Shown here in pieces: positions 7,138 to 54,910 of a stretch of 64,000 nucleotides of DNA. The position numbers and the translations under genes are program-made. Within the stretch, counting starts at the first letter, position 1; every line of letters begins with the position of its first letter. Source of the DNA: Selaginella tamariscina (lineage: Eukaryota; Streptophyta; Lycopodiopsida; Selaginellales; Selaginellaceae); NCBI GenBank assembly GCA_003024785.1, contig PUQB01000047.1, forward strand, positions 429,652-493,651, written 5' to 3'. The notes beneath the pieces are model-generated. The model was not told the origin of the DNA and ran no database searches. It saw nothing but the letters and a program-made list of their open reading frames with translations.

Positions 7138-7599
7138 TAATTCGAGTCGTAATCATTGGCACTTCTTCATCCTAGTCCTTCTCATTTGTAAGAACTTTCG
7201 TCGTATTCACTCCTACTTGACTTGTATCGGTTTGAATATTGCTCACATCCAAAGCATTTGTTATCTGTATTCGCAAAAATGGTGCTAATGTCAGTAACTC
7301 CTTATAGTTAACTGTACATGTTGTTGCAGAATCACAGCAACAATACAATCTCCAAGTGGTACTGTTGATGTGGATTGTTGTGAATGCATGCTCATTTCAT
7401 TAGTCATAGAGTCTTGATTTTCCTCTTGTTGCATTTTCTGAATTTGATCAATCACTCTTTGTACTGTAGCCTTTTCTTTCTTCCAATTCTTGCGTATTGG
7501 TTCTTCTTTTGCTGATTCGACCCGTGTTACGCATATGTCTCAGTTGAGGGTAGTTTTGTATCTTGCTCCCATTTGCACTCGTAATTTTGTTCATGATGG

Positions 7600-13837: not shown

Positions 13838-14711
13838 GTTTCCTGTACACATTCATCTTAATAATCGAGAGCTCATGGAGTTTGCCTTGTTAGACACTGG
13901 TGCAAATGCATGCTTCATGGATGACACGTTTGCAACTCAACATGGCATTTCGGTGGTGAAGTTGAAGCGTGCAGTTCCTGTAGAGGTGGCCGATGGGCGT
14001 CTAATTGCTTCTGGTGCAGTTACCCATGCTACCGAACCTCTCTCCTGCAGGTATGGCACATTCAACTGTTCAATTTCCTTCAACTTGATCAAGACTCGGT
14101 CGACTCCCATCATTTTGGGCATGCCATGGTTCGTTGTTGCAAATCCGCAGATCGACTGGAGGTCTAGGACGCTCACGTTTTCCTCTCCAACTGCTAGGAT
14201 CAATCCTGTACCTTCCTGCGTGCAGGATACATCCTTAGTATCTGAGGCAGTACAAGCTACAGGATTGACCGTGCCTGTTCCTGTACCAGTGTTGAAGACT
14301 CCTCCTCGACAGGATTCACCTCATATCAGTTCCTCAGCACATCTGCAGGCTCTCTCCACTCCTGTAAGTTGCGGTGTCCTGTACAGGGTTCTTCCAATCC
14401 TGTATCAGTGTCGAAGGTTCCTCCTCAACAGGATCCACCTCCTGTTGATTCGTCAGCACATTCGCAGGCTTCTTCCACTCTTGCGCAACCACGGACTCCT
14501 GTACAGGATTCTTCCAATCCTGTACACTCATCACCCACACAGGTTTTTTCCAATCCTGCTTCTTTCTGTTACCCTGCTTCTGTTCCATCCCCCAAGATCC
14601 TTCCTCTTTTTCAGTCACAGCTCCCTCCTTCTCCTCTCCGAGTTCTTACCACTACCATGCATGAACTCGCCACTGATCCTGCTCCCTTCCACCTTTTTGC
14701 CTTTCAAGTAA
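13785..14711 (+). CDS. Aspartic protease region of chromovirus 1
   Basis: This retropepsin-type protease cuts the Gag-Pol polyprotein. The active-site motif is [13 protein letters not shown] (about residues 35-47) and the flap/C-terminal part is [18 protein letters not shown]. After about 14230 the frame becomes a Pro/Ser-rich linker with repeated PVPV and SSNPV words and slips out of frame near 14360, so the natural product would continue in the next frame into reverse transcriptase. The frame overlaps gag by 53 bases, which could reflect programmed shifting or decay. Confidence 0.8.
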
Positions 14712-32600: not shown

Positions 32601-32720
32601 TAACCATGCTTAGCAATATTAAAACCTTGCTTATTTAGATCTAAAACGTGCTTAAACCCTTGTACACACCACATGGAACTACAAGCTATAAGTATGCATG
32701 AAAGTAAGACAATACAAAAA
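29691..32720. other. AT-rich intergenic DNA with degenerate ATGCCATAT repeats
   Basis: I see no supported gene. Two patches (31065-31130 and 31560-31940) are built of degenerate words such as ATGCCATAT, CCAAATGCC and CCATATTCC. A segment at 32240-32450 resembles 54990-55115, on the other side of the large transposon and in the same orientation (for example ACATTACAAGTAA, CCCCACATAAT). The remainder is AT-rich and featureless. Confidence 0.5.
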
Positions 32721-32746
32721 TGCAAGTTGTAACTAAGTGGGGCATG
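32721..32746 (+). repeat. Left terminal inverted repeat
   Basis: TGCAAGTTGTAACTAA followed by GTGGGGCATG. The right terminus read on the minus strand is TGCAAGTTGTAACTAA followed by AATGGGCATG: 23 of 26 positions agree. Confidence 0.75.
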
Positions 32747-33007
32747 ATACGTGAAAATGGGAATATAAAATAAATTACTAATTAATACTTAAGTTTTAAT
32801 TATTAATTAATCATTTAATTAATATGTAATTAAGCCTTAAATATTAATTAATTAATTAATTAATCCTTCAATAACCTTACTTAGTAAGGAATATTCCTAA
32901 AATATCTTAGAATATTCATATTATTCTAAAAATAGTTTACAATAATGAAGAAATACTATCAAACATAATTACAAATGAAATCATTTTCTTATCAACATGT
33001 TAATTTT

Positions 33008-34153
33008 TTATAAATACTTTCTTTCTATCATACAAAGAAATCTTTTCATTTTGTCTAAATCATCACTCTCCGGATTAATCAAATCATTTTGGTCAATATC
33101 TTGATGTTGTTGCCACCACTTAACACTCTCACGAATGCAATTGGGAGTTGCCATCCTTGTTAATACATAAGATGTGATAAGAGAAGGTCTGCATAAAGGC
33201 TCATCTAAAAACTGACGTTCCTTAAGAATAATATTATAAAGCGCCCGGTTGCTATCCTTCATTTTATAAAATTCAATATCACGAGAAAGAAAAGCTTCAG
33301 GAAATGTATGATACGGTGGATACTGCTCACAAAAATTTTCGAGATTCTTCTTTCTGAGGCACGTATCCAAGTAGTTCACTAGCTCATCCATGATATCGGT
33401 ATCAGAATATGGATCGAAAGTGATTGGATGAATACAAAATGTTTTGGTTGAGCATAGCCTTCTGAGGAGAGTCGTCTACTACTAACATCTGTGCGTTCTT
33501 CATTATCCTTAAGCGACTGATCTCCCCATGAGTCCCAATTATTCTTTCATTCTTGAAGAAGTATGGCTTGCTTTCCTTTCTTATATTGTGAAATTCGAGA
33601 GGTTTATGACACATTCGCTGGTCAAAAATCCAATCTTTACGAATCACCTCTTCTGCAACTACAATGTTTCTTAAGTAAATTCAACAGCGGTGTTAAGTTA
33701 TGAATCTGCATGCATGACCAAATCCCCACAAGCGCACCCATCTCCTTAAGCTTTTGAAAGAGACGATCCAACCCTGGACGAAAAATAATATCATATCGAA
33801 ATTTACCATGACAAGGAATGAAATCTCCTTGTTTGATTTCTTTTTTCTATCCTGGGCCTTTGTCGATGAAGCAGAACACCATTGACATCCAACAACACAA
33901 TATGGCCATGAGTAACATGAGATGCGTTTGCCTCTTGAATACTTTGCAAATCACTTGTTTGCTCCCTTTCACATTTATCCGTTGCCACTATCTCGTTGCC
34001 TATCCCTTCATCATTTAATTGTACATCATCCTTACAAGATTCAGATATTGCATGCGCTGAAGAAATTGATTTCGGAACTGAAGCCAATAAAAATGATGAT
34101 GAAGTGGCCCCCATGGTAACGATGTTTTGAGCTGCATTATTATCCATTTCCTG
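33008..34153 (-). pseudogene. NLI-interacting factor (FCP1-like) HAD phosphatase-like gene, frameshifted
   Basis: The fold is that of the NIF/FCP1 branch of HAD phosphatases. Motif I is HIVLLDVNGVLLHR (about 33870), with Asn where the canonical DxDxT/V has its second Asp. Then come IIFRPGLDRLFQKL and LVGIWSCMQ (about 33700-33790), and motif III/IV MLVVDDSPQKAMLN (about 33450-33500). The tail FDPYSDTDIMDELVNYLD follows the family pattern. The N-terminal about 90 residues are acidic and low in structure. At least three shifts (about 33830, 33660, 33400) break it. It sits 260 bases inside the left terminus and downstream of the methyltransferase-like region in the same direction, so it may be the 3' end of the same transcription unit. 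It could be captured host DNA. Confidence 0.6.
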
Positions 34154-34468
34154 CATGAACTCTGTCATTCTGACATGTGGCACAAGAAATTGTCGCCAAA
34201 CCCCTCTCTTACCTCATGGCAATGCTGAAAATCCATGTTCTCAATTATTTCATTACATCTGCAAAATGATAATTAGCTGACCTTAAAATTATCAAGGTAT
34301 ATTATTTACCTTGTTAATGTGTGACCCATGTTTGAACTAAAAGCTTCATTAATCCTTGAGAATTTATTTTCTGTACAAATATAAAAAAATATACAAAAAT
34401 GCCTTATGTTACACTCATTTACAACTATTCGTCACTCTATCAATTCATTATCAATTCTTCTTCGCTAT

Positions 34469-37400
34469 TTACCTTTCTGAGTGAGGCGAAGAAGGTCTAA
34501 GCCGCTTGTGAGATGGTTCAAGATCTTCTGCATCTTCTATTGATGTTTCCATGGGTCCTGGAGTGTGCGAATGTTCTGTACTCCTCGAGATAACTTCCGG
34601 TCTAATATCTGATTGAAGTTCGTTCTCAGACTCCGAGATTGAACCAGATTCACCTTCAGAGCTATCGCACTTATCTGGAGGGAACTTTCTCAAATACGCC
34701 TTTATGGAATCGTTGGGGTACTCAGTTGAGACCCAATCTATCCACTTGTTCAGGTCCTCAACCATGGTCTTATCCTTTTCAACGGCAAACACACATGTAT
34801 GCCGAAGGTAACACTCCTTCAAGACGGACCCCCTAGTGCAGTAGTCAAAAACCCACGCATCACTGTGAGGACCCCTAATCAAGTTGACGATGCTCCGTGC
34901 CGCTTGACTTGTAATGTTTGGATAACGTACATTGTCGAATACGTCACTCATACCTATCGGTGTATCGGATGGAGGTTCAGGGCCGTTGGAGTGCAAACAG
35001 ATGCCTGGCCAGTCATTTGGAAGCTTGAAATTGTTTGGCGCATTCCTAACAACCAAGTGAACAACGGTATCAATGCACTTGGGATTAGCATCGTTCATAT
35101 AAAATCCTGTCCAAACGATGTCTATTCTTCTTGGCGAAGGCGAAGGCAAAAGTATCGGTGACATGAGCAAGAATCAAGAAATAAATACCTGAAAAAGTAG
35201 GTATCAGTGAAGAGCGCAAGCATGAATTCAATAATAAATACCTTCTATGTATATGCTTGCACGGCTAAGTTTCTCCACCAGATCCTCTAGTGCCCTATCT
35301 GTCGAAAGATTTTTTGACACCCGCCGATCCATCACGAACAATTGAAACGGTTTCCTACAAGCAGTGATGTTACCCCATAAAGTCTCCGAATCTAACAACA
35401 AACATCTGTAGGGCTTGTCGTGATTTGTAGCATCCTCCTTTATAAGGTTCAATTCGGTTCTCCGCTGCTGAAGGACTGCCATAAGAGAAGGCGTCATCCC
35501 AATGTTCTCCTTTTTGGCGTTGGCGTGCAATAGATTCTTGCCCAGATCTTCCGATTGGTTCACCCATTCGACAAGCATATCATCGTTCGTCACATGCAAA
35601 TATTTGCTGACCTCTTCATATGTTGAAGTCGAGGTCCAACCCAGTTTGTGGCAGTGTATTCCCAACCACTCCTTGAAATGCCTGACCGTCTTCAACTCCA
35701 TTGCCTTGAGATGAAAAGGAGAGGTTGGGCTGCTGTTATTAATTTGTAGTTTGCCATCGATCACCAAATCAGCCAAGACTTCCATCTCCTCCATCGTTGT
35801 TCCATTTAAAGGCTTCAACCATGTGAGCTTGAAATCGTTGTCTACATCCTTTGTAGATTGAACAGACTTAGCCTTCGGCGTCTTACTGGGTTTCTTTGCA
35901 GACTTTTCTGAGGGCTCCCCTTCACTTGTCTGCTTCTTCTTCAGTGTTCCTTTTGAAAAGGATTCCATAATCCCCAACCATTTGGCAAAGATCTTATCTT
36001 CGGGGCAAGAAATCAACATCATCAGAAAGGATGTTTCCTTCCCGCCCACCTGGGCAAAATCAACTGCTGCAATTTCTTCAACTCTCTGAGGAAAAAGACA
36101 GATTATACCGGCGAGATAAATCCCGCCCAAACAATTTGCTTACCCGGTATTCCGCAGATTGTGTATTCCCTGCGGTAGCTCTTTGTGGTCGCTGAAGAGA
36201 TTCCCACACGGCTCGCGTGTGTTTAAACTTCTCCCATATTTTGCTGTTGTAGTGGTTGGTGTCGGCAGCGTCCCATTCCGCCGATAACTTATGGTACTGC
36301 TCGATTGTGAGATTCGGCTTAGCTAAAAACGCCGATCTTTTTGTCAGCTTCTCACGGGTATGCTCGGAAAGTTTTGTTGCCATCGTTCCTTTGTTGTGTT
36401 CCTCGAGAAGTCGTTGGGCTGCCGTTATTGTGTGCTGGCCACTAATGATGTAGTACTTGATAGATTTTTTATTCTCCGTCTGAATCTTCATGAGTTGTTC
36501 TGGTGTTGTGATCCAGACTTTGTCAGCGCCCTTCCTTCTTTCATAGTATGGACACAAAACAGCATTATGTGGAACGGTATAAGAATTGTCGTCCTTCATC
36601 TTCTCCATGAGCTCAGCTACACGTTCCTGGTTGAGTGGCCTGTAATTGAAGTTTGGGTTGACGCTGCAATATTTAACCCTACAAGGATAAATCTTATCAT
36701 CCAACATCATTTCCTTGTGACTTATTGCAGCATGAGATGCCACAGGTGCAGCTGACAAAACGATTGATGATTTTCTTTTGCGATCCGAATCAACATGTGT
36801 GATCCCCGACTGCAGCTGTTCTAGTGTTCTCGGTACACTCTTCCAGCTCCCAAAGCTCCCTAAGCAAATTGAACGTGATCTGTAGAGAACCTGAGACCGA
36901 GCCACCCTCTCAATCTCCATTATGATGTCGCTGTGTTCTTCTTCAATGTGAAGAGGGAGATTGCTCCACTTGCTGATTTTCTGTATTGTGAAGCAATATC
37001 TCCTGACAATACACCTACTCGATGAGTCTGAAGATTTTCGAAGTAGACATCCAGATGGATCCCCTCCATAGATGGGCTTTCGTTGAGTTGAAGAAGAACT
37101 CCAAGGTCAACATCATTAGTGAACACGTGAACGTCATTATCCACAAGTCGACAAAACCACCCGAATTAATGTTGTAACTGACGACCTCTGGATCCGAGAA
37201 CGTGACATTGGATGGAACAAGGCATATGTGTCGAGCATCGTCCAATCTGGGTTCGCAGCCTGCTTTCGGGTGCTTGACTAGCGAATCTACTTTCCATTGT
37301 TTTGCTTGTCCATGAGATGTGACAGAGGTTAATTTGACAGCAGCCATGGTTGCTCCAATGCGCTTCCCATTTATCTTAAAATATGGCCAAGTTGATTCCA

Positions 37401-37582
37401 GAATCCCCCTGCCCATCTCTTCTCCTGCTCTTGTCTTTAATGTCACCTCAATTCCACATCTGAATACAAAAATGATTAGTTCAAGTATCCGAGTATAACA
37501 GATTTTATTTTAATTCTTACCCAGAATTTGACGACGACTCCATACTAATGACTCGATCTCCTTGTTTGATCAAATCGTCCTT
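34469..37582 (-). pseudogene. ParB-like domain plus probable permuted DNA methyltransferase, broken
   Basis: Minus-strand exons I can place are 37582-37521, 37459-36144, 36085-35242 and about 35188-34469, with small introns between (61, 58 and 53 bp). An N-terminal beta module (VTLKTRAGEEMGRGILES) resembles those of the transposase. A ParB/sulfiredoxin-like domain follows (about 36700-36440): YRPLNQERVAELMEKM and YYIISGQHTITAAQRLLEE. A Lys-rich linker then leads to a region resembling circularly permuted N6A/N4C methyltransferases: PYRCLLLDSETLWGNI..FVMDRR where DPPY would be expected, and near the C-terminus WVFDYCTRGSVLKECYLRH and FAVEKD, which fit the AdoMet-binding motif. The end is acidic and Ser-rich. 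Two frameshifts between 36980 and 37160 and one near 35170 break it. ParB-methyltransferase fusions are known in phages. The methyltransferase call is the weaker one. Confidence 0.55.
36086..36143 (-). other. 58-bp intron carrying one palindrome unit
   Basis: The donor CCGG|GTAAGC and acceptor CCTCAG|AGAGT on the minus strand join AEYR to RVEEIAAVDF. The intron contains GGCGGGATTTATCTCGCC, a variant of the array palindrome, at about 36106-36124. This is the only unit I find outside the three arrays. Confidence 0.65.
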
Positions 37583-37885
37583 CTGCAAAATAATACACTA
37601 TAAATATAAATTATATAAAAACGCACACACACTTGTATAAACCCGAATATACAAAAATAATACACAGAGAGAAGTAGACGTAATTAACTGTCCGAAGCTC
37701 ACATTTGTGTTAGTGCAAAAGAAAGATAACATTTCGTTTTAGAACCACCACAAATGTGAGCTCTGGACAGTTTTACATAGATTCCTAGCTTTTACTCGAA
37801 ATATTATGATAAGATGATAAAAGTAAATAAAATGAGATATGCAACTTATATATACTAATACACATATATATTCACATGGAAGGTG
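37583..37885. other. Upstream flank of the ParB-like gene
   Basis: The acceptor TTTTGCAG lies at 37583-37590 and is preceded by AT-rich sequence. A short inverted repeat pair (CACATTTGTGTTAG near 37700 and CACCACAAATGTGAG near 37745) could form a hairpin. No promoter motif can be assigned with confidence. By analogy with the transposase gene this may be the 3' part of an array-bearing first intron. Confidence 0.35.
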
Positions 37886-39410
37886 CGGCGGGATTAATCT
37901 CGCCACCCCTTCAATGCCTCCTGAAAGAGTGGGCGGGATTAATCTCGCCACCTTTCTGGAGGCCTTGAACGGGAGTGCGGAATTAATCTTGCCACCCTTC
38001 TCGGTCTCAGAGAGAACTGGGCAGGATTTATTTCTCACACCCCTTCAGTGACTCCAGAAAGGGGCGGGATTAATCTCGCCCACCATGTAAGGATGGTTAA
38101 ATGAATTTCCCACCCTTCCCAATTCTCTCCATTGGTATGTTGAAAACCTTCTACGTCTAGACAGAAACGTTTGGGATTGGTCCGACTCACCAATGGAGAA
38201 AAAAGGAAGGGTGGCGGATTCATTCCTCCAACAGGCATTGAAGACTCGCGGGATTAATCCCGCCGCCCAGGGCCTTCACTCGGTCCCTATGCGCGGGATT
38301 AATCCCGCCGGACGCCAATTCCCTGCGCGGAATCGGGCGGGATTAATCCCGCCGCCTAGGCACTTCAGGCAGGCCAATGGCGGCGGGATAAATCCCGCCC
38401 GATTCCGCGCAGGGAATTGGCGTCCGGCGGGATTAATCCCGCCTCCCAGGCCCTTCACTCGGCCTTAGTCGGCGGGATTAATCCCGCCGAACGCCAATGC
38501 CTGTGCGAAATCTTGCGGATTAATCCCGCCGCCTAGGCCCTTCAGGCAGGCCAATGGCGGCGGGATAAATCCCGCCCGATTCCGCGCAGGGCATGCGTAC
38601 GCGGCGGGATTAATCCCGCCCACCATGTAAGGGATGGTGAAATTAATCCCACCACCCTTCTCAGTTCCCTCCATTGGTATTTTGTAAACCTTCTCCGTCT
38701 CAGACAGAGTTAGTCGGGATTGATTCAACATACCAATGGAGGAAAAAAGAAGGGTGGCGGGATTAATCCCGCCACCGGGTAATGAAGGTTCGGAGAGACT
38801 AATCCCGCCGCCCTCTCGTAAATCATGCGCTCACACATATATATTGGCTGCGGCATTTTGAACAGGGATGGGTGGGGGCGGGATTAATCCCGCTTATATC
38901 CTGCGGAAGTGCCTGAGCGGCGGGATTAATCCCGCCGCCCTCCGCGAAGGGCATGAGCGTGGGGCCGGATTAATCCCGCCGTTCATGTCCTGCGTGAATT
39001 CCCTGGGCGGCGGGATTAATCCCGCCGCCTTACGCGCAGGACATGTCATGCAGGCTCTTCGGTTAGCCTTCCGTGCAGGATCTTTCATGCAGGCTCTTCG
39101 GTTAGCCTCATGAGCGGCGGGATTAATCCCGCCGCCCATCCCTGTAAATGCCCTGCGCGGAATCCGGCGGGATTAATCCCGCCCATTAGGCCTTCACACA
39201 GGCCATTGCCGGCGAGATAAATCCCGCCGCATTCCGCGCAGGGCATGGGTGAGCGGCGGGATTAATCCCGCCGCGAGGCCCCTCACGCAGGCCATGGGCG
39301 GCGGGATTAATCCCGCCGCTCTTCGGTTTGTCGTAGAGCGGCGGGATTAATCCCGCGCCCATCGCCTGCGTGAAGGGCCTCGGCAGCGGGATTAATCCCG
39401 CCGCTCGAGG
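37886..39410. repeat. Array of GGCGGGATTAATCCCGCC palindromes beside the ParB-like gene
   Basis: I count about 27 units, the largest of the three arrays. Variants include GGATAAATCCCGCC and ATTAATCTCGCC. Units are again about 40-45 bases apart in the dense parts. Spacers contain recurring words (TGCGCGGAAT, AGGCCCTTCA, GCAGGCCAATG) and are themselves arranged as larger direct and inverted repeats. Frames across it read GGINPA/GLIPPP in both directions and are not genes. Confidence 0.95.
38085..38775. repeat. Pair of about 170-bp hairpin-like repeats within the array
   Basis: Two related segments, 38085-38230 and 38620-38775, run CACCATGTAAG-GATGGT, CACCCTTC, CTCCATTGGTAT ... ACCAATGGAG, AAGGGTGG. 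Each can fold into a long stem (CCACCCTTCTC..CTCCATTGGTAT with its complement). They differ at many positions, so the duplication is not recent. Confidence 0.6.
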
Positions 39411-39419
39411 GGCTTAGCG

Positions 39420-39494
39420 TGTGTGCGAGAGATAAAATTAATAAATAAAAAAATTATACAGATAAAAACACACACATATATATGTGTGTGTGTG

Positions 39495-39530
<36 letters not shown>

Positions 39531-40153
39531 AGGAGTGTACGTGTGTGTGCAAGAGATAGATAAATAAATAAAATTATACAGTACTGGTACACATAATATA
39601 TGTGTGTACATAGGTATATATATGTGTATATGTATATCGTGTGTATGCGTGTGAGCGAAACAAATAAAATCATACAGATAAACAAACACACCACACACAT
39701 ATATATACACAGGAGTGTGCGTGTGTGTGCGAAAGATAAAACTAATAAATAAATAAAATTATACAGATAAACACACACATATATATGTGTGTATATAGAT
39801 ATATAATCCATAGAGAAAGAGAGAGAGTCTGTGAATATATAAGCATATATATAAACTAGTGTTGTATGTATGTATATATGTATATAGGTATATATATATG
39901 TGTATATGTATATTGTGTGTATGCGTGTGTGAGCGAAACAAATAAAATCATACAGATAAACAAACACACACACACACACACATATACATACACAGGAGTG
40001 TGCGTGTGTGTGCGAGAGATAAAACTAATAAATAAATAAAATTATACAGATAAACACACACATATATATATGTGTGTATAGATATATAACCATATGAATA
40101 TATAAGCATATATATAAACTAGTGTTGTATACTATTTGTTAATATGCATTGAT

Positions 40154-40199
<46 letters not shown>

Positions 40200-40500
40200 G
40201 CAGTGTGCGTGTGTGTGGGAGAGATAGATCAATAAAAAAAAATTTACAGATACTGGTACACATAATATATGTATGTATATATGTATATAGGTATATATAT
40301 ATGTGTATATGTATATCGTGTGTATGCGTGTGTGAGCGAAACAAATAAAATCATACAGATAAACAAACACACACCACACACACATATACATACACAGGAG
40401 TGTGCGTGTGTGTGCGAGAGATAAAACTAATAAATAAATTTATACGCACACTCCTATACATATATACATACATACACACACACACACACAGATCTCACCT
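39420..40500. repeat. Long TG/TA/GA microsatellite region
   Basis: Alternating TG, TA and CA runs with AAATAAAATTATACAGATAAA inserts recur about every 200-300 bases, so the block is a tandem repeat of a larger unit (for example around 39430, 39720, 40010 and 40400). It is homologous to the first 240 bases of the window but much longer. Open frames reading HTHIYI are artefacts. Confidence 0.8.
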
Positions 40501-41460
40501 GTGTGCACAGCCGCCCGCCGATTTCACAGCCGCGCCTCTTGAAACCCTAAGAATATACCTAAACCCTAAAGGAATTAAATATATATATTAACCCTAATAG
40601 AATATTCCTTCTGAGAATATACTTAAACCCTAAAAAGAATAAAATATAGATTCGCCCTAAACGAATATTCTTTCATTATATTATTAGCGCGTGCGTGTGC
40701 GTGGGTGTATCACATACACCCCAAAAATATAAATCATGCAGGGATTTAACATGTGTGTGTCCATGAGAGTGTTAAAGTTTCATGTGTATCAATACATACA
40801 TACACATTGCATATATTAATACACATAATATATACATACACACGTGTATACACACAGACATACATACATATTACATGGGTTTAGGGTTTAGGGTTTAGGG
40901 TTTTGGATTTAGGATGGATCATGCATGGTGTGTATGTATGAGAGAAGAGAGAGTGTTGAAAAATTATTTTTGTACACATTGCATATATTAGTACACATAT
41001 ATACTTACACATATTATACACAGATATACATACATAGTATATGAGAGAAGAGAGACAGTACATATTATGGATCATGCATGGTGTGTATTATACACACAGA
41101 CATACATACATATTAGTACATAATATTAGAGAGACCGAGTACATATTATAGATCATGCATGGTGTGTATGTTTGAGAGAAGAGAGACATACTTAACATGG
41201 ATCATGCATGGTGTGTATGTATGAGAGAAGACAGAAAGTACACATATATACATACAGAGTACACATATATACATGCACACGTGTATACACACAGACATAC
41301 ATACATATTACATGAGTAAATTCATTGTGTTACATATTAGGGTTTAGGGTTTAGGGTTTAGGATGGATCATGCATGGTGTGAAGAGAGAGTGTTGAAAAA
41401 TTATTTTTGTACACACATGTATACACAGGGTTTAGGGTTTAGGGTTTAGGGTTTGCTCCC
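40501..41460. repeat. Telomere-type TTTAGGG runs and GATCATGCATG units
   Basis: Three short runs of three to four TTTAGGG-type units lie at about 40877-40910, 41338-41363 and 41427-41453, interleaved with five units beginning GGATCATGCATGGTGTGTAT (40915-41400). In copy 1 the equivalent place has one imperfect TTTAGGG run at about 768-790. TTTAGGG is the plant telomere repeat, but here it is a few units inside a transposon. Confidence 0.75.
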
Positions 41461-42405
41461 AACAAGCTTAATATAAATATTACACATGTAAATTCAATGT
41501 GTTACATACACACAGATTGAGTACATATATCATACATGCGTTGAACATGATGTAAAGAAGCAACATATTTCTTCAGTTTGGTTTAGGGTTGTGCATGTGT
41601 GTGCATATGTGTTTTTGTAAGTTCTTGTAATGCGTGTGTAAATTTATGATTGTGTTTATATATGTGTGCAAAACAAACATCGAATAATTAAGAAAATAAT
41701 ATTAATAAACACACTATGAACATATTTTAAATTATACATAATAATATATGATTTTATCTAATATATAGCCATATATAGTTTTAATAATATATATTAATTT
41801 AATATTGATAAAAAGGTTTAACATTGAAATATTCTTGAAATAATAAGAAATTAATTGAGAAAATCCCATTAATATATACAAATGTAAATTAAGTACTCAA
41901 ATAATTAACTAAATTAATTATCATAATCATGTTTAATATTGGAATATTCTTGGAATAATAAGAAAATAATAAAGAATATCCCATTAATATAAAGAAGATT
42001 AATTACTCAAGTAATTAAGGAAATGATATTAATATATATATTATTAAAACTATATATGACTATATATTAGATAAAATGATGTATTATTATGTATAATTTA
42101 AAATATGTTCATAGTGTGTATTAATTTAATATTGATAATAAGGTTTAACACATGAATATTCTTGAAATAATAACAAATTAATTGAGAAAATCCCATTAAT
42201 ATATACAAATGTAGAATAATTACTGCAATAATTAAGAACAAGACTAATTTAATTATGATAATCAGGTTTAATATTAGAATATTCTTCAAATATTAATAAA
42301 ATATTAAAGAATATCCCATTGATACTAGGAAATGAAAACTAAATACTCGAGTAATTAAGAAAATAATAATAATAAACAGACTATGAATATATTTAAATGA
42401 TACAT
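41461..42405. other. AT-rich internal stretch of the transposon
   Basis: It has no gene and matches 1090-2015 in copy 1. Recurring words are TTAATATATA and GAATATTCTTGAAATAATAA. An inverted repeat is seen around 42000-42115, where a segment complementary to the neighbouring block (ATTATTAAAACTATATATGAC) lies in opposite orientation. It ends at the target TACAT (42401-42405) of the inserted LTR element. Confidence 0.6.
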
Positions 42406-44244
42406 TGTCAGAGTTTTAACCCAAAGGGCCAACACGTGGCAACACGTGGCTGCCAGGTGGCCATTCGGCGTCATCACCCTGTGTGAGCAACGCTAAGTTC
42501 CCCAGAACAACCCCAACGACCCCTAGGGTTAGACTCTAATGCCCAAGTGGACAAGAGACTTAGGGTTTAGCCTAAGTCTCCCTAGAATGTCTGCCCCCAG
42601 AACCCTTGAGGGATAACCCTAGTTGACTTAGGGTTTAGCCTAAGTCTCCCTAGAGTGTCTACCCCAAAACCCTTGAGGGATAACCCTAGTTGACTTAGGG
42701 TCTTGCCCTAGAAGACCTAGACAGGCTCATGCCCTAACCCCCATCAAGGAGACGTGTGTTCCACACATACCCCCGTGACAGAGCTAAGGCATTGTCACTT
42801 ACCCCTTGAGGAATCACCCTCATCCGGGAGTACAACCCCTTTAGGGCGACAAGGGGTACCCTGAACCATGACTAACCCCTAAGGGTTTGAGTGGCCAAGT
42901 TACACCCTAGACCTAGGGCTAGTACTTAGTGAGGACACGAGTGTGCGCCGTAGGCGAACACGAGTGTTCTGCTAAGCAAACTCCCTAAGGCTAGGTTTGG
43001 GATAACCCTAAGCACATGACCTTGCGAGTGCCTTACGAAAGGGCTTCTGCTAATGAGCTTAGGTTGTTCAACCCCTGGATTCCAAGGAGAACACTCCCTA
43101 GCCAAGTGTGCCAAAGCACACCTAGTTACGAGATCTAACCTCCCTCGAGCGGATGCCCAAGGCTTAGCACCCTAGTGCAAGCACAAGCATGCCTGTTTGC
43201 TAGAGTATCCAACCCCTTAGCGACAAGCCCATGACATAGCCCCAAAGGGCGTGCCTCGGGCGTTGTACCATGTGACGTTTAGCCCAGTGTCACATCCCAT
43301 GTGACACTGCCTTCCAAGATGTGGGCTATCATGCCATAGCCCTTAGATTCAAGAGTTGCACCAAGTACCACAAACGTGGTTCCTAAATGCCAACTCTAGA
43401 ACCCCTCAATGAACCCTCAGGAACCAGGTAACGTGAACATGTCAAACAAGATTCCACGCCCACAGTTGGATAAGGACACGGATGTGCCTTGCTTGGCCGT
43501 GAGTGCTACACCTAGTTTGACATGGAGGAGGAGGCTGGAGACAAGCCTCAACCTCTGCCTCTTGGAACGTGCATCCCGACAAGACCTCCCAGGCATGGAT
43601 TCGCCAACGTTAAGGGTAAGCTACCCCGAAGGTGGGACGTACCCCTGGCATCTGGAAGTTAGGGCGGCACAACAGAGGGTTGTACCTTAACGACACAAGC
43701 TGAAGCTTGCACCGGCAGAAGAGCAACGAACTCATTCATGAACCCAGGAGCTCTCCTACGTATACTCTACCTTATTTATGTGACGGAGCCCCCCCCCCCT
43801 CTTTTCCTGTTTGTATTAGTGGGCTGGCACTGAATTCTAGCCCCTTAGATAAATTAGCAATATGAGCCTATAACTCACCCTTACTCCTACCCCTAAACCC
43901 TACCCAAGGGGGTGGGGGTTTTAGGGCGTGGGTTAGGGCAACCCTAGGGTTAGGTCAACCCTAGGGGTGTTCCTAACCCTACTTAACATGCCGAACTCAT
44001 ATGCAAAGACCAATCAGCTTATTCGGGACGTCAAAATTGGGGGTGGGTTTTCTAGAAGGTAAGTGCCACCTTCGCTTAGAGTTTCTCGCGACATCTAAAG
44101 ATAGCCGGCCGGACTACCCTTAAACACCTAAGTGCACTAAGCGGGGCTGTTTCTCACTACATCTAGGGTCCGTCAACATAGTACAGTAGGTAACAACAAT
44201 CAACGTCCAAAGTAAAGGGTCGAGTCATAGTAAAAACTATGACA
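42406..44244 (-). repeat. 3' LTR of the non-coding element
   Basis: On the plus strand it runs TGTCAGAGTTTTAACCC to AAAACTATGACA. It is GC-richer than its surroundings, with many CCCTAGGG and GACTTAGGGTTTAGCC words, including a tandem duplication at about 42560-42690. The minus-strand start TGTCATAGTTTTTACTATGA is a small hairpin. Confidence 0.9.
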
Positions 44245-47200
44245 CACTCCCCGCCTTTGAAAATGTCAACGTCCTCGTTGACGTCCAACTCCAAGACTAG
44301 ATAATGTTAGAGAAAACTAACCAAAACTAACATATCACTCTATGCGGAGTCAGCCAAAAGTTCACATAATTTTTATTACCCCCCTTGCATTACGCGAAAC
44401 CAAGTACTTCAGAACCGTCGTCCACTGAGTCGTAAACCCAGCTGCCGGAGGAACCACCTGCGACATGAAGTCACCTAGAGACCTTTTGCACGTCTGCAAA
44501 GTCTGTCACCCGACGCACACAACACAATGGTTAATTTCTTTATTTAACTAGAATTTATATTGGAGGCCTCTAGTTAGTGTTGTTGCCGGCCCCTTGGTTA
44601 ACAAGAAATAAAGGCTTGCTTTATTCTTTAATATCAAACATTGTTGACGACCTTGTCGTCTTAGCGCACAACAAGCACGTTGAGTCATCTCAAGTGCTTA
44701 ATTCAACACCTTTGCATTTCTTGAATTTTCCAATGGTTTCCACATGGTACGGTATTATAGCCTCACACTTCTGTATCCCTCGGTGTTTCTCATTACTCCT
44801 TTACATAAGGGTCTGCTACTATATCTATTCCCGTTAGTATATAGCTACGCTAGACTAAGTATGAGACTTTCATCGGAAACAAGCTCTTTTCCGATATAAG
44901 AGTACAAGTTGTAAAACCCTGTTCTTTGTAAACATGTCAATCTGGCCAGAGGCGATCACAGAGGCGCATGGCTGTACACATGTATACAACAAGGTCTTGC
45001 CTACCAAATGCCATCCACTTGGTGTGTCATTAACATAATTTATTCCCGATAAGAATCAAATTCAGTCAAATCTACAACCAAGTGCGATAGCTTTACCATT
45101 CGTCTTTCGCAACCAACTTTGTACTCTTTCATAACACCGACCAGTTCAGGGACCAGATAAGCTAACATACCTTTCTTATAAACCCATGTGGGACCAGGAA
45201 ATTCAACTCATCTCTAATGTCTCCATCGATAACCTTTAGATAACTTGTCTCTTAATTGTCACTCTCATTGTACTCATTCCCCAAAGAGCACATCATGCTA
45301 GATGCATTCAATAATTCCTAACTCTAATCTCGCTAAGGCTACATAACTTAATCCTAGAATTAAGTTAAGAGAGTCCAGCTTTATGATAAGAGTCTCCCTA
45401 AACTCGAATACTAAATCATCATAATATTATACTTTTCCAACTCGTAAAACTGATTACACAAGATTTCAATAAGTTAATATTGAAACACAGCAGCGTCACT
45501 AATTTGAATCATTCAATTAAAGTAACTTACTTTCGAAAAAGTAATGCTTTTCATCTAATTCAATTAGTGTTCGTGAAATACCTTCAAACATCCTTATTTC
45601 ATATAACCTTTGCATTCTTGATATTGATAATATTTTGTTCTCGTGATCATTGACTAACCTTGAAGTTCAGAATTTAACAAGTGATGGGTTTGTTAAATAC
45701 TTCGCATACTCAAGTGCTTTGCTCTTGTGAACGCATATAGTTACATTATCAAACATAACTACATGAACTATCAAAATATCAAGCTGCGGTAGTTATTATG
45801 GAATGAGGACTTAGTTCTTGATATTACCCGAACTTCAGTTTCAAGACGGAAATATAATGTTATAATGCATTAAGCAACAGTTCAGGGACCAGGAGGAATC
45901 ATGAACTAGTGTCTGGTTCATCTAATTGATTTAGTAAGATATCAACCTCCACATAAATTATCATAACACTGAAGTGTTATATCAACTTCATGTTTAGTCA
46001 TACCTTAATTCAATAGATCCCCAAACATGAAAAATATCTAATTCAGTACATTGAACTAAGATACATTATTCACTCTAGACACCTAGCAATCCAGAAAGTA
46101 TCCCATTGCCCCTCAAGCGTATTAAAAATGTCTCATTTCTCAACTAACTTGAAAACATGTTTCAAGTTATAACACTAAGGTAGTGCCTTACCAAAGTGTC
46201 AACTCAATCTGCTTGAGTCTTATATGATTACGGCCACCTCATGTGATCATAACCAAGTTTAATATTGAGCGCTCCAAACTCAATATTGAAGAGATATCAT
46301 ACCATACTTTGACAAGTCATTTATAACCAATCTTGAAAAGATTGTCACAAATTTATCAAAGTTTAGAATATAAATATCTCAACAGATGAGGTGATAGGAA
46401 ACCTCATATTCTCGAACCGGATATTGGACAGAACCTTGAACTACAATCATCAAGAAGGGACACCATCTTCTTGAGCTAATCCCGCTACACAATATCATAC
46501 TTACAAGAATATTGAACCAACTCAAGGAACACCATCAAACCTTGAGATAGAACAACAACTAACCCAAGGAATACAATCAAACCTTGAGTCAAGAATAGTT
46601 CTATTTTCAATATTCCGAAAGATTGAAGATACATACTTTATTTGTTCTTTAAGTGCCCACATTTGCGACCATGATGCAAAGTCAAGAAACCGTCTTTTGA
46701 ATAATCGTATTCGACTCTAAAATGAAATCGTTATTGAAAATCAATACCAACTTCTAATTCTCATCGAATACCGACTCTTGAGGAGGTACATGCACTTAAA
46801 CCTCCAAAATGTATCCGACTACTTTGCTCATTTGACATCACCAACATAACTTATTAAACTTAGCAAGTTTCCTTACTTAGTCAATAAGCAAGTGGAGAAT
46901 CCCAAATCATGCTCTTCTTAACCAAGGAATCACCCTTGTTCAAGAGCTTATCCCACATTGCAAACAATTACAATTTCAAGATTAAAGAGTTAACAATGAA
47001 AATGCACAAGTGTGCGCCGAACGCCTTCACTATGCAAGTCCTTATTACTCAGTAAACTGAAAATGTAAACGTATGTTTCCAACATTACTCTTTCTGATAG
47101 ATCATGCCATCTATCCCAAAACTGCGATAAGAAACCGAAACTTAAGCGTTATCCAAGTCTCTCCATGATCCCATATGAGACAACTTCATAATCAAGTTAG

Positions 47201-48087
47201 TCGAGCTAGCTAACTTGAATACGAGTGCGCGCTTACAACTAACTAAGGTTTCAAGTTGTACTTTGTTCAAATTAACGACTTGAACTTAGTAAACTATTTC
47301 ACCTAATGTTACTTGCAGCTAGCGTCATCAAAGTATTACGTCCATCGGACAATACTTTGATTACATTGGATCTTCGAACCAACTGCTTAACATATTCATC
47401 ATATGTTAATATTGACATTCCGTTGTATTATAAGTTCATACCATAGTCTGCTTCTAGAGTTACACTCTCGGAAACATGCACTATAATAAGAGCTTATTTT
47501 ACACTTTATGTCAAAATGTAGTGTTCATTCTTATGTTTGAATATGCCCCTTCTCCCGAAGTCAAAGATGCACTTCTGAACATAAGTCTTTCCCCGTTTGA
47601 ACACTACAGTTGGATCCGATATTGAATCTTGACATAAGCCAAAACTCAAAGGACACTATCTGTTTCCAAATCATGTGTTATCCCAAATTCAAACACCTTA
47701 AAGAAAAAGAAAAATTTTCAATAATGGTAACTTAGCATATCACATGATCCACTTCACAAGACTTAGTTTGTAAGCCAGAACAAACTAACACGCCACGTCT
47801 TGTGGAAGTATATGGTAAAGTAACCTGGACAACCTTAAGGTAAAATAACCTGGCATACAACTTGGAAGCTGACTTCCAAGTGCTACCTTCTAAGTCCATA
47901 ACCCACACCCACTTATGAAGTAGGTGTACTTGAAGAGTTATAGATCTCAGGACCAACTCTCCACGCAGAATTCAGACATTAGCCAAAAGTGATAGAGTAC
48001 TTCAAGAATTTAGAACTAACTAAACCCTAAAATACACTACACTTTAGGTAGTCCTACTGACCGCAGAGAATAGGCTCCGCTACCAAT
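44245..48087 (-). other. Non-coding interior of the LTR element
   Basis: About 3.8 kb contain no open frame that resembles a protein and many stops in all frames. The sequence is moderately AT-rich with frequent CAAGTT, CTTGAG and ACTTGAA words. This is typical of large retrotransposon derivatives. Purine tract AAAGGCGGGGAG (minus) lies at 44247-44258. Confidence 0.75.
48073..48085 (-). other. Primer-binding site of the non-coding element
   Basis: TGGTAGCGGAGCC on the minus strand begins two bases after the LTR end CTCTGACA. It resembles the usual plant initiator-Met site TGGTATCAGAGC but differs at three positions. It sets the element's orientation. Confidence 0.65.
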
Positions 48088-49923
48088 TGTCAGAGTTTTA
48101 ACCCAAAGGGCCAACACGTGGCAACACGTGGCTGCCAGGTGGCCATTCGGCGTCATCACCCTGTGTGAGCAACGCTAAGTTCCCCAGAACAACCCCAACG
48201 ACCCCTAGGGTTAGACTTCTAATGCCCAAGTGGACAAGAGACTTAGGGTTTAGCCTAAGTCTCCCTAGAATGTCTGCCCCCAGAACCCTTGAGGGATAAC
48301 CCTAGTTGACTTAGGGTTTAGCCTAAGTCTCCCTAGAGTGTCTACCCCAAAACCCTTGAGGGATAACCCTAGTTGACTTAGGGTCTTGCCCTAGAAGACC
48401 TAGACAGGCTCATGCCCTAACCCCCATCAAGGAGACGTGTGTTCCACACATACCCCGTGACAGAGCTAAGGCATTGTCACTTACCCCTTGAGGAATCACC
48501 CTCATCCGGGAGTACAACCCCTTTAGGGCGACAAGGGGTACCCTGAACCATGACTAACCCCTAAGGGTTTGAGTGGCCAAGTTACACCCTAGACCTAGGG
48601 CTAGTACTTAGTGAGGACACGAGTGTGCGCCGTAGGCGAACACGAGTGTTCTGCTAAGCAAACTCCCTAAGGCTAGGTTTGGGATAACCCTAAGCACATG
48701 ACCTTGCGAGTGCCTTACGAAAGGGCTTCTGCTAATGAGCTTAGGTTGTTCAACCCCTGGATTCCAAGGAGAACACTCCCCTAGCCAAGTGTGCCAAAGC
48801 ACACCTAGTTACGAGATCTAACCTCCCTCGAGCGGATGCCCAAGGCTTAGCACCCTAGTGCAAGCACAAGCATGCCTGTTTGCTAGAGTATCCAACCCCT
48901 TAGCGACAAGCCCATGACATACCCCAAAGGGCGTGCCTCGGGCGTTGTACCATGTGACGTTTAGCCCAGTGTCACATCCCCATGTGACACTGCCTTCCAA
49001 GATGTGGGCTATCATGCCATAGCCCTTAGATTCAAGAGTTGCACCAAGTACCACAAACGTGGTTCCTAAATGCCAACTCTAGAACCCCTCAATGAACCCT
49101 CAGGAACCAGGTAACGTGAACCTGTCAAACAAGATTCCACGCCCACAGTTGGACAAGGACACGGATGTGCCTTGCTTGGCCGTGAGTGCTACACCTAGTT
49201 TGACATGGAGGAGGAGGCTGGAGACAAGCCTCAACCTCTGCCTCTTGGAACGTGCATCCCGACAAGACCTCCCAGGCATGGATTCGCCAACGTTAAGGGT
49301 AAGCTACCCCGAAGGTGGGACGTACCCCTGGCATCTGGAAGTTAGGGCGGCACAACAGAGGGTTGTACCTTAACGACACAAGCTGAAGCTTGCACCGGCA
49401 GAAGAGCAACGAACTCATTCATGAACCCAGGAGCTCTCCTACGTATACTCTACCTTATTTATGTGACGGAGCCCCCCCCCCTCTTTTCCTGTTTGTATTA
49501 GTGGGCTGGCACTGAATTCTAGCCCCTTAGATAAATTAGCAATATGAGCCTATAACTCACCCTTACTCCTACCCCTAAACCCTACCCAAGGGGGTGGGGG
49601 TTTTAGGGCGTGGGTTAGGGCAACCCTAGGGTTAGGTCAACCCTAGGGTGTTCCTAACCCTACTTAACATGCCGAACTCATATGCAAAGACCAATCAGCT
49701 ATTCGGGACGTCAAAATTGGGGGTGGGTTTCTAGAAGGTAAGTGCCACCTTCGCTTAGAGTTTCTCGCGACATCTAAAGATAGCCGGCCGGACTACCCTT
49801 AAACACCTAAGTGCACTAAGCGGGGCTGTTTCTCACTACATCTAGGGTCCGTCAACATAGTACAGTAGGTAACAACAATCAACGTCAAAGTAAAGGGCGA
49901 GTCATAGTAAAAAAACTATGACA
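48088..49923 (-). repeat. 5' LTR of the non-coding element
   Basis: It is almost identical to 42406-44244. Observed differences are mainly lost or gained bases in runs (CCCCC, AAAA, CTT). The nearly perfect match means the insertion is younger than the frameshifts in the host transposon are likely to be. Confidence 0.9.
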
Positions 49924-50239
49924 TACAAAATAATAAATATAACAATTTATTTTATGTAATAATATAATTTATTTTATATAAATATAATATATATAATATA
50001 AATATAATTGAATACTAAGAATGTAGAATATAGTCTAAAATTTCGTAATATTAAACAGCTTGAATCACTTGAATAACATTAAATGCAATTTTAAAATACT
50101 CATTGGAACTGGAGAGTATATATGTCAGAGTGTCGGATATTTGTGTCAACTCATCTTAAATTTTATTTTCTGTTCTTTTTAAAAATTTGAATTTCTGACA
50201 TATGTATTGTCGGTCTGACATGTAAATTTGAAAATGCAT

Positions 50240-50412
50240 TTAATTTCCCACTCAAATTCAGATCTGGTTCTTTCTCCGGCAAGGGTTTCTTCATTTCTGT
50301 ATTTTTCACTCTTTAGATCTTCTTTTTTCTTCATAGTGATCATCTCAGGAGCGAGATTAAATTGGGTGCTATTCTTTATAGGAAAGCACGGCGCCTTCAG
50401 TGCTGTTTACAA
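50240..50412 (+). promoter_or_regulatory. Likely leader exon and splice donor of transposase gene, copy 2
   Basis: This is the same block as 2291-2450: a CT-rich stretch, then GGAAAGCACGGCGCCTTCAG and TTTACAA|GTAAGTATT with the intron starting at 50413. The acceptor is at 51367. Conservation of the exon and donor between copies supports its role. Confidence 0.5.
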
Positions 50413-50579
50413 GTAAGTATTATAAACAAATTTAAAAATACTTATAAAGATTCACTCTCTTACATTCTCTCTTAAAATTACAATTTAGGGGTTTAGGAAT
50501 GCATTAGGATTATAATATATTCCGTTAGGGATTTATCCCGTTTAAATATCCTTTTAACTTAATATTCTAGGTTAACCGG

Positions 50580-51220
50580 GGCGGCGGGATTAATCCGGCC
50601 ATTTCTTTTTCGCCTCTTCGAAGAGGTGGCGGGATTAATCCCGCCACCATCTCTCGGGCAATGCTTCTCCGCCACTGAAAAAGAGTGGCGGGATTAATCC
50701 CGCCGATAACCTTCTCAACTGATGAAGAGTTACCAGAATTTATTAGAAAGAGTTGTCGGCGGGATTAATCCCGCCAACCATTTTAGGAGGCAGGGAAGGG
50801 GTGGCGGGATTAATCTCGCCACCACATCCCTGTTTTAAGGATTTGGGGACAGGATTTATCCCGAGATCTCTTTGAAATCATAGTTTTGGAGAGAGTTATG
50901 TGCGGGTTTAATCCCGCCACCCATTCCCCGTCGTAAGAATTGTGGGCGGGATTAATCCCGCCGACTCCTCCGAAGGGGTTGAGTCGGCGGCGGGATTAAT
51001 CCCGCCGACTTTCCTCGGAAGGAGTCGGCGGGATTAATCCCGCCGGACTCCCCGAGGAGGAGAGGCGGCGGGATTAATCCCGCCGGCTCTTCCTTGTCGG
51101 AGGGAGTCCAAGGCGGGATTAATCCCGCCGACTCTCTCCGAAGGGGTTGAGTCGGCGGCGGGATTAATCCCGCCGACCGTTCCTCGTCGGAGGGATTCGT
51201 GGGCGGGATTAATCCCGCCC
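50580..51220. repeat. Array of GGCGGGATTAATCCCGCC palindromes, copy 2
   Basis: I count about 13 units of the same palindrome, inside the first intron of the transposase gene (50413-51367). The order of spacers matches copy 1 at both ends, but the middle is shorter by about three units, so arrays change length by unit gain or loss. Confidence 0.95.
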
Positions 51221-51367
51221 ATCAGTTGTATTAATCAAACATGAGATATTATCTCTAAACATAATTATGTATTATTGCATATGCATATTATTAAGTAACC
51301 GTAATTCAGATTTCTTAGAAATATTGCATAAACAGATATCATAAATAATACAATTATTTATGTGCAG

Positions 51368-54300
51368 GACAATATGTTTAATACTGGAGATAAAGTATGT
51401 CTTCTTCGGAACAACGAGATAGTTGGCACTGGAACTGTGGAAGTTCGAGATAATAATGCATCATGTCACAATATTGCCCAAGGATCTTGTGTGTACGTAT
51501 GGGTGAACACCATTTACAAGCATGTTGAGGTTCTGGGAATGGAATTTGAGGAGGGTTCTCCTGTATTGTGGAATTTGGATGAAGTCAAGGCTGACACAGA
51601 ATATGCAGAGTCACAAACAAATAGTAGCACGAGTTTACCAGATGATGGCTTGCCTGCTGTGATGGATGAGGTGATTCTCTTTCTTCGTGAGATTGAAGTC
51701 GGAAGAGGCATCATCACAGCTATAAATCCAATGGAAGCAGTGTCAGAAGAGAAACTAGGGTCCGACTTCGTGGGTGTAGTTGTGACAGAGGTTTCACCTA
51801 ATGGCACATTGTATCCTGGATCCCTCGTGAGGTGGCGAACATCTGAATTAAGACGGCAAGATGGTTCAACATATTCTGGGTTGGATTTCAATAATAACAA
51901 CCCGGAAGAACAACTCATATTTGAAGAGGTTCCTTGCATTGGTCCTATTGTAAGAAAAAGGCGATTCATGGGTTGTAGATCTTCCCCTGCAAGTTTCAGC
52001 AAGAGGGTAAAGATGGATCCTACATCTTCCGAAAGTGTTACGAGCATTTCCACGATTGACTGTTGCAAGAAGAAGTGTTGTCAGATGGCAGACCGGAATG
52101 AAATTACCCAATGTAGACATGTCTTTCGTATGCTCACCCAAAAGCAAAGGCATGAGTTTGTATATGCTGCACTAACTGGGTGTATTGATGGAATGGCCTC
52201 GGACACAGGTTATCAGAGTACATCCATGGTATTTAATAAGGTGGCCATCTGCTTCAAAGCTTGGTACAGTATATACGGGATCCCAAAGACCACGTTCTAC
52301 CGTCGGAGGGATGAGTGGCTAGATGGAGCGCGAACCTCAGTTCATGGGAACACTCGCTTGGTCAAAACCCGCTCTCACATCATGGCAGCCATAGAGATAC
52401 TCAAGGCTTTTGTGGAAGCAAATGCAGACAGGATGCCTCACAAATGCCGAACCACAAATGCAGGGGTCAGGGAAAATCTCAAGGTTTTACCTTCAATCTA
52501 CACTCAATTGAAACTGTGTGAACATGTGAACAAGTGCCTCAGTTTGATGGGGCTCCAAGCAATCTGCACTGGTACCTTCAACAACATATGGAATACTCAT
52601 TTTAAGGATGTGGAGATTGCAAAACACTCTAGCTTTTTAAGTGTGACACTTGTACATCATTGAAGGCTGCAGAGGCTTGTGCAAAAACCTTGGTGGAGAT
52701 CACTACCATTCAAAGGAAGATGGAGGCCCACATGATTGCACAACAAACTTGCCGGTCTCAGTACTATGCACACCGCATGCTTTCTGTGTCACGCCCATCA
52801 GAGTACCTGTGCTTGATCCATGACAAGATGGATCATTCAAAGACCAGCATTCCAAAGCTCTTTGCAACACCAAAGTGCCTTGGAAATGTCATGAAACTTC
52901 CGATTTCATTGACAGGTGTGCTAACACATGGACACGGTTGTGAGTCATATGGACACTTTTCACTTCCACATTGGTCTAGCGACTCCAATTTCACTATTGG
53001 GTCGTTAGCCATGTGTTTCAGAAACCTTGAAGCCCACTCACAGACAAGTCCTATCAGTGATCTCAAAGTGAAGAAACAACACCTTCAACCTTTACATAAT
53101 GCTCTCATGAACACATCTGCACTTGAGGCTACTTGGGAATATGAGAGGCATTGTCAGCAACCTGCACAAAAAACAGATGGCCCTGTTGAGAGTTCAGGTT
53201 CAGTGGAGGGATCTAGCTCAAATAGTGTACATGTGTCCTCAACATCAAATAAACTTCCTCGTCCATACTTACTTTTATTTTCTAGATATGTGCTAGCATA
53301 CTTGTCAATGCTTGTTGCCAAAGGTGTGTTTGAAACAATCACGCTCAGTTTCCTTATGGTTGGTCACACTCATGAAGATATTGATGCGTTCTTCAGCAAG
53401 GTCTCCAACTCTACAAAAAGGACAAGTGCACTTACCTTACCGCATATGATGAATCTTTTTGAAAATTGCATCTCCAAAAAAAGTTGTGCTTTGCTTGTGA
53501 CTGAGGTGCCAGACTTCAAAAAATTTCTCAAGGAGTATATAAAAGAAAGGAGTGATTCTTTAGTTAGTCACCTTGTGCCGCTACAATTCTTTTTCTCCAT
53601 ACGAGATGGTATACCTATTATGCAGTACAAGTTACGGCCATCAGAGCAGGAGTGGTTACCGAAAGAGGGCTTAATGCTCTTCAAAAGTGGAGAGGATGGA
53701 AAGCCACTTCTCCCAGAAGGACAACCAGACCCTATTCCATTGAGTGCCCAGCTCAAGGAACAAGAGGTTATTATTGATGGCATCAAAAAATATGTGGCAT
53801 GGGTTCAAAAATCGATGCCAAAGAATTCTGATAAGGCAACTGGTTACTCAGAACTATATAAGCATGTGGTCAACTATTGGGAGACTGTTGTTCGAGAGTT
53901 GGAAGGGCCTACTGTCACAAGTACAGAATTGCAACACCCTTTCTGGCCTAAAACAAGGTGGCAAGAGGAGATTGAAATGACATCACTGAGCATAGACGAC
54001 ATAGAAGCCAGTAGTGATGTGGAAGTGCAAACCCCACACTTTGTTGGACAAAGGAACCAAAAACCTAAAGCATACTTTGATTGCTGCAAGGATCTTCAAA
54101 AACTAATGATGGTTCTCATTACTCCAGATGCGTCATATAATCAGCCTATTTGGATGGGTCAAATTATCGACACACCTGAAGTAATCACAAAAAATAGTAT
54201 TGTTAAGGTTGCATGGTTCAAACCACAAAAAAGGCGACACGAGAAGGAGAGCGAAAGATATAATGGATGCCTAGAGAAAACATGGTCTCCCAATCAAAAA

Positions 54301-54414
54301 GACCTAGCATGTTTTATAAATGTTAAATCCATTCGATATGGGTGGATGTCAAGAAGCGTTGATAAAGTCACGATTAACAAAACTGCAAGGGAATGTATGT
54401 TTTCTGAAGCTTAA
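51368..54414 (+). pseudogene. DUF7869-type transposase, copy 2 (frameshift and active-site deletion)
   Basis: This is the better preserved copy, in two frames: 51374-52663 (two beta modules, CCKKKCC cluster, helix-turn-helix-like IPKTTFYRRRDEWL) and 52660-54414 (IHDKMDHSK near 52816, VGHTHEDIDAFFS near 53359, then about 340 residues of C-terminal region). A one-base loss at about 52637 removes the CDTC pair and breaks the frame. A net 77-base deletion at about 53260 removes the DN..ENKN motif together with the 5' splice site of the 51-bp intron. The rest of that intron is translated as PYLLLFSR. Both changes should abolish transposition. The family normally runs 700-900 residues, which the combined frames match. 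Confidence 0.8.
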
Positions 54415-54910
54415 AGCAATTACAAAATTATAAAATATTATATATTTAATATTCATAATTATTATAAACTCTTTAATAATAGTACCAAATTGTATACTTA
54501 ACTATATAAATTTAAAAAATGATATGGAAGATTGACTATATTATTATAGGATTTTATATATATATTATTACTACTACAAATTTTTAATTAATAATGTTGT
54601 ATTTAAATATTAATATTACATCAATATTTATATAATGTACCTCTTATGCTCTTCCTTAATTGTTATATTAGGCAATATATTTATAATTTAATACATTCTA
54701 CTTTTATAATGTTATTAATTTTTGTTCAATGAATGTTATAATTTATTAAAGGGTATAATACAAAATAGAATATTCTAAAGAATATTCTCTTTTCAAACAT
54801 ATATTCTAAAGAATATTCCTTTAATATTAGAAAATGTTAATTAAATAGCTAAAATTACTAATTATTAGGAAATGGGACTATAGCCATGCCCATTTTAGTT
54901 ACAACTTGCA
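54415..54910 (+). mobile_element. 3' AT-rich end and right terminal inverted repeat
   Basis: Non-coding AT-rich DNA holds GAATATTC motifs (54770-54830). The terminus TTTTAGTTACAACTTGCA ends at 54910. Its reverse complement matches the left end at 32721. It matches 6630-7137 closely up to TGCATAA and then diverges. Confidence 0.75.

Follow-up and report, generated by a model that had tools for sequence, protein, structure and literature searches.

The window considered here is a stretch of 64,000 nucleotides of the Selaginella tamariscina genome (contig 804, positions 429652–493651, of a 300.7-Mb assembly with 1391 contigs). It carries two copies of a DNA transposon with two divergent arms (Table 1). 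One arm contains the gene of a DUF7869-type transposase; the other contains, on the opposite strand, a NIF/HAD phosphatase-like gene and the gene of a protein of no recognised family (the orphan protein). Arrays of an 18-bp palindrome, GGCGGGATTAATCCCGCC, lie upstream of the start codons of both the transposase and the orphan gene; an earlier annotation made from the same letters (the original prediction) does not mention them. That this is a real two-armed transposon, with the anatomy described below, is close to certain. Judged from its sequence, it appears to be a high-copy, cut-and-paste DNA transposon of about 14–15 kb.

Copy 2 of the window spans 32720–54911 and has inverted ends ATGCAAGTTGTAACTAA. 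The original prediction had taken 32721–54910 as transposon throughout. Its ends stand, but not the content: 7.5 kb of this 22-kb span belong to a nested long terminal repeat (LTR) element, so that the whole span cannot be read as transposon. Once the nested element is subtracted, copy 2 is about 14.7 kb long, and the lengths of five other complete copies, all free of long N runs, are 13.8–15.4 kb (runs of 2500 and 647 N occur in C1_323971 and in copy 1 of the window, respectively).

The 16-base end TGCAAGTTGTAACTAA is exact at 32721–32736 (+) and at 54895–54910 (−), and occurs with one mismatch at 7122–7137 (−), the right end of copy 1; the predicted right border is thus supported by both copies. 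At up to three mismatches there are five matches in the window (two of them with three mismatches), with a chance mean of 1.08 and at most four in any of 100 shuffles. Genome-wide, the exact 16-mer of the terminal inverted repeat (TIR) occurs 1,231 times (647 + 584) and the reversed pattern not once; from the exact count, we infer a family of about 1,200 copies. Most left ends read TGCACG and right ends TGCAAG. The best reading of the ends is ATGCA...TGCAT, with the A before and the T after counted in. On this reading, 6 of 12 usable copies carry an exact 4-bp target duplication (a thirteenth has N in its flank). It is absent in copy 1, C1_16905, C1_796443, C2_182401, C91, and C113b. In two of eight further end pairs, the left end is absent from the predicted stretch. 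The recurrence of the inverted ends at many separate loci, together with a 4-bp target duplication, is the mark of class II, cut-and-paste elements.

Up to 20 kb inward were fetched from 10 of the 1,231 exact-TIR places (the first ten listed, named by contig and position). Both arms and the left end are present in C1_16905, C1_323971, C1_796443, C1_2087176 (with the first bases of the end altered), C1_2368661, and C2_182401. In C1_182273, the left arm is not found within 20 kb. The left arm of C2_162010 is partial, its left end does not appear within 20 kb, and a second family copy lies inside it. C2_515029 is a short fragment from the right end, with TIR-like ends and no palindrome, and C1_2054337 is a diverged, rearranged relative. 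In the latter, from about position 2054337 of C1, a right-type end is followed by a residual 3′ end of the transposase gene and then by the orphan gene; the NIF gene is not between them, and the arrays are its own, with different spacers. Copy 1 of the window matches the right arm of copy 2 at 93.6–95.4%, the alignment continuing into the spacer. Its left arm and left TIR are located beyond the window border; the idea that it lacks a second arm is rejected. The prediction of a single unit with two divergent arms, recurring at other loci between the same ends, therefore stands: it applies to the two copies of the window and to 6 of the 10 fetched sites, and arms occurring only independently were not seen in this set. 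The genes are broken in both window copies.

The DUF7869-type transposase foreseen in the original prediction matches PF25273 with E 1.1e-33 (116.9 bits vs. a curated cut-off of 26). Among 4079 candidates, 51 relatives are found at E 0.001, several of them named as Riccia sorocarpa (a liverwort), and the motifs DKMD, QxDN..KN, and GHTHED are invariant in 12 aligned sequences. DUF7869 proteins with DUF8039 (PF26133), such as those of R. sorocarpa, share the domain and the invariant motifs with the window transposase, which has full-length similarity of 38–55% to unnamed relatives. In the open-access literature searched (subscription papers are mostly outside its coverage), DUF7869 is not named, and no described element with ends and a second gene was found for these relatives. 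Copy 2 lacks 76 bp containing the middle motif; copy 1 retains those 76 bp and is broken elsewhere. In the main exon, the ratio of nonsynonymous to synonymous change (pN/pS, from simple uncorrected counts against one open copy) is 0.16–0.35 in copies with at least 14 changes, and 1.12 and 0 in two copies with 5 and 3 changes; in the last exon it scatters between 0 and 1.04. The transposase is conserved by selection, alongside the orphan protein.

The four exons of the orphan gene are predicted from splice signs and frames read in the sequence. For the main exon, 96 matches were scored, the best of 6577 first-look genome candidates. Among these best-scored matches (and not the remaining candidates), 88 are without stop, 72 are both full-length and without stop, and 91 are 94–100% identical to the query, itself included. 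Twelve of them lie on contigs 1–202, the range of 100 listed TIRs: nine have an exact right TIR at a distance of 9.8–10.6 kb, with side and strand as expected, one has it at 18.7 kb, and two have none. The pN/pS of exon 2 is 0.23 in C1_16905 and 0.24 in C2_162010 (pS 0.14 and 0.13), that of exon 3 is 0.19 and 0.14. In nearer copies, with few changes, the values are 0.35–0.56 for exon 2 and 0.07–0.21 for exon 3; those of exon 4 range from 0.27 to 1.36. In the relic C1_2054337, the values are 0.37 (4 stops) and 0.30 (5 stops). The orphan protein is under purifying selection. Since pN/pS is low in the more distant copies (0.14–0.24), the protein has been retained by selection alongside the transposase, and purifying selection rules out a dead cargo.

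The original prediction had given this protein a ParB-like domain and a methyltransferase-like fold, and neither name is supported by the searches. Those for homologues, a collection of 5.8 billion proteins included, scored 7993 candidates with none at E 0.01 and, in a second search, 3927 with none at E 0.1. Pfam, NCBIfam, and PHROGs give no significant match, only weak ones to unrelated or unknown families, no ParB model at E up to 5, and no family match for exons 3 and 4. In the PDB at E up to 10, there is no ParB and there are two chance matches (E 1 and 1.6). A tblastn search of phages yields a single match, annotated as RNA polymerase, at E 7. Compared with the transposase profile, the N-terminus has a probability of 0.4%. 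The structure models (mean predicted local distance difference test, pLDDT, of 33 and 43) are too poor to use, so that the lack of ParB among their listed fold matches is uninformative. A DPPY-type motif is the hallmark of N6/N4 DNA methyltransferases; the corresponding stretch reads MDRRV in the eight copies in which it was located, by a pattern search designed from these same residues. The ParB and methyltransferase labels appear to draw on motif order only and should not be used as annotation.

The NIF/HAD phosphatase-like domain, also part of the original prediction, is upheld: PF03031 matches with E 8.8e-10 on the window read-through with X, and with E 5.1e-12 (46.2 bits vs. a cut-off of 21.8) on the open frame of another copy (L014:8405–9472). 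The pN/pS of this gene runs from 0 to 1.4, with too few changes to inform. The gene may be an addition to the element.

Table 1. Features of the transposon copies and of the nested element, in window coordinates
Feature	Position	Strand	Remarks
Copy 1, right part of element	1–7138	+	Left arm and left TIR outside the window at −6266; palindrome array 2621–3379, 16 sites
Left TIR of copy 2, ATGCAAGTTGTAACTAAGTGGGGCATG	32720–32746	+	In the other left ends read, fifth letter of TGCAA mostly C
NIF/HAD phosphatase-like gene	33008–34250	−	Frame-broken in copy 2; start approximate; motif I is DVNG
Orphan gene	34455–37543	−	Exons about 37543–37521, 37459–36144, 36085–35242, 35188–34455; broken in copy 2
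Single palindrome site in orphan-gene intron	36110–36127		2 mismatches; matching place occupied in six fetched copies
Palindrome array before orphan gene	37887–39402		27 sites, up to 4 mismatches
Nested LTR element, not part of transposon	42406–49923		LTRs 42406–44244 and 48088–49923
Palindrome array before transposase start codon	50583–51219		13 sites, within the presumed leader intron (50412–51367)
DUF7869-type transposase gene	51374–54414	+	76 bp missing at 53264 (DN...ENKN motif); frame break near 52640
Right TIR of copy 2, ATGCAAGTTGTAACTAAAATGGGCATG	54885–54911	−	

The palindrome occurs 31 times exactly in the window (0 in 100 shuffles) and 57 times at up to four mismatches (27 + 1 + 13 in copy 2 and 16 in copy 1; 0–1 in five Markov controls). 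Complete copies without long N runs have 38–48 near-exact sites. Of 383 neighbour distances below 120 bp in the fetched and window sequences (one overlapping stretch being counted twice), 174 are 44 or 45 bp. The arrays lie directly before each gene, the right one about 3.7 kb and the left one about 5 kb from the nearer end. Exact palindromes number 27,128 in the genome, or about 22 for every exact TIR, and the reversed pattern is absent. At up to three mismatches, there are no sites outside the element in seven of eight element regions examined; in C1_2087176, there are 13, in a neighbouring diverged relative. As in the VANC-type systems discussed below, non-coding parts of the element thus contain dense arrays of a motif specific to the family. 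The palindrome core has no relevant description in the literature searched. In 257 Gb of prokaryotic genomes, 49 palindrome stretches are found, and in 2.9 million viral contigs, one. Three exact palindromes, two of them 201 bp apart, are on contig JADLHE010000379.1 (L107, L136) of a Saprospiraceae metagenome-assembled genome. Four contigs (L122, L128, L132, L134) of one Prevotellaceae bin, JAIRUB01, have an exact palindrome within 50 bp of the contig end, as if it were part of an assembly-breaking repeat.

The 18-bp core is kept at 88–100% per position, with flanks at most 60%. The diverged relative beside C1_2087176, about 80% identical in its coding parts, has kept the palindrome among different spacers. 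In the right array, the changed motif columns number 34/1876 vs. 333/3710 in the spacers; in the left array, 28/2133 vs. 118/4765. The choice of sites by consensus biases this comparison up to about twofold and, because of this, only the right array is telling.

The nearest known systems are the VANDAL elements of Arabidopsis. There, VANC proteins recognise a short motif that recurs in introns and upstream regions, and by binding it they lift the silencing of their own VANDAL family (PMC5735166; PMC10398659). VANDAL elements (Mutator-like) are, as the window element, multi-gene DNA transposons with a second protein besides the transposase; as here, a dense family-specific short motif occupies introns and upstream regions of their own genes; and expansion of the motif arrays through tandem repetition is a further shared feature (PMC5735166). 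The differences are also clear. The window transposase is of an unrelated type, the site is an 18-bp palindrome instead of the 9-base directional motif given for VANDAL in that source, and the orphan protein is without sequence similarity to known families.

The interpretation that we prefer, and hold to be more likely than not, joins this anatomy with a palindrome-based control by an element-encoded protein. The DUF7869-type, DDE-like transposase would act on the ATGCA...TGCAT ends and give the 4-bp duplication; the ends and the duplication are observed, the role of the transposase is proposed. A dimer encoded by the element, most likely of the orphan protein, would bind the 18-bp palindromes. 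Bound across the arrays, the protein might switch on the element's own genes or keep them open, as VANC does for VANDAL. The array binder is taken to be element-encoded, and likely the orphan protein, because the layout is VANDAL-like: the site is specific to the family, its arrays precede both genes, and a second protein is conserved. We give self-recognition through the palindromes a better than even chance; that the orphan protein rather than the transposase binds them is an even bet. As far as the arrays indicate, self-recognition is likely, with regulation likelier than partition.

Several points weigh against this interpretation. The exact target duplication in only half of the usable copies is the result at the best of 144 settings scanned, and 4 of 10 fetched sites fall short of a complete two-armed copy. 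For the orphan protein, neither a relative nor a fold could be detected. The motif columns of the left array change only twofold more slowly than the spacers, within the possible effect of site choice. Compensated symmetric variants are few (44 vs. 27,128), and the symmetry test is weak, mostly at expectation, with an excess in one outer pair (76 vs. 53 expected) and in one inner pair (104 vs. 92).

In CACTA elements, repeated subterminal motifs are bound by the transposase. Likewise, the palindromes could be transposase-binding sites needed for transposition, with another role for the orphan protein: the arrays accompany the element in every complete copy examined, and the transposase is also conserved. 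Since the arrays lie deep inside the element, before genes and not beside the ends, and since C2_515029 has TIR-like ends without palindrome (the mobility of this piece being putative), we consider this unlikely, though the most serious of the alternatives. The palindromes might instead be passive, a GC-rich unit spread by unequal exchange within leader sequences and read by no protein. Their leader and intron positions, the variation in site number among copies, and the fast expansion of such arrays would agree with this, but the conservation confined to the core, its retention in the diverged relative despite different spacers, and the contrast in the right array, which exceeds the roughly twofold bias, make it quite improbable.

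The order of motifs in the orphan protein resembles, by eye, what we take to be the ParB core, and the sites cluster near a gene, as parS beside parB in the annotation of phage P1. There is, however, no sequence match; the sites here are far more numerous and upstream of genes, and no ParA-like partner was found among the open frames read. No description of a ParB system with transposable elements was found in the literature searched. A literal ParB-like protein with a methyltransferase fold, partitioning or methylating the element DNA, is the least probable reading: besides the empty library searches, the uninformative models, and the missing DPPY-type motif, it is not evident why a chromosomal transposon would need to be partitioned. 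Slightly less improbable, but still doubtful, is a parS-like system in a eukaryotic transposon, in which a ParB-fold protein would load at about 40 palindromes per copy and spread along the element; if true, such loading would keep about 1,200 copies transcribable or shielded from host silencing.

If the palindromes address an element-encoded protein, as preferred here, this would be another self-recognising DNA transposon, built of unrelated parts and using a site that is palindromic, longer, and very abundant. The orphan protein would gain a role, and DUF7869 proteins would be the engine of a large multi-gene element. As a single orphan protein and a single 18-bp site with 27,128 genomic copies are involved, the question is directly testable, and the element may illustrate how a transposon recognises and controls its own DNA.

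The nested LTR element of copy 2 (7.5 kb) has direct repeats of 1.84 kb that are 99.2% identical, and copy 1 is without it at the corresponding place. It is probably non-autonomous because no open frame of 150 residues was found inside it. Related pieces, in opposite orientation, are near 11.0–12.0 kb of the window. Two Ty3-like retrotransposon copies in opposite orientation lie at about 12.1–18.4 kb and 19.9–24.0 kb, with pol-type open frames at 14246–17760 and inverted matches of 82–95%. A 208-residue open frame at 7612–8238 (−), with CCHC zinc knuckles (PF00098, E 1.9e-13), adjoins copy 1.

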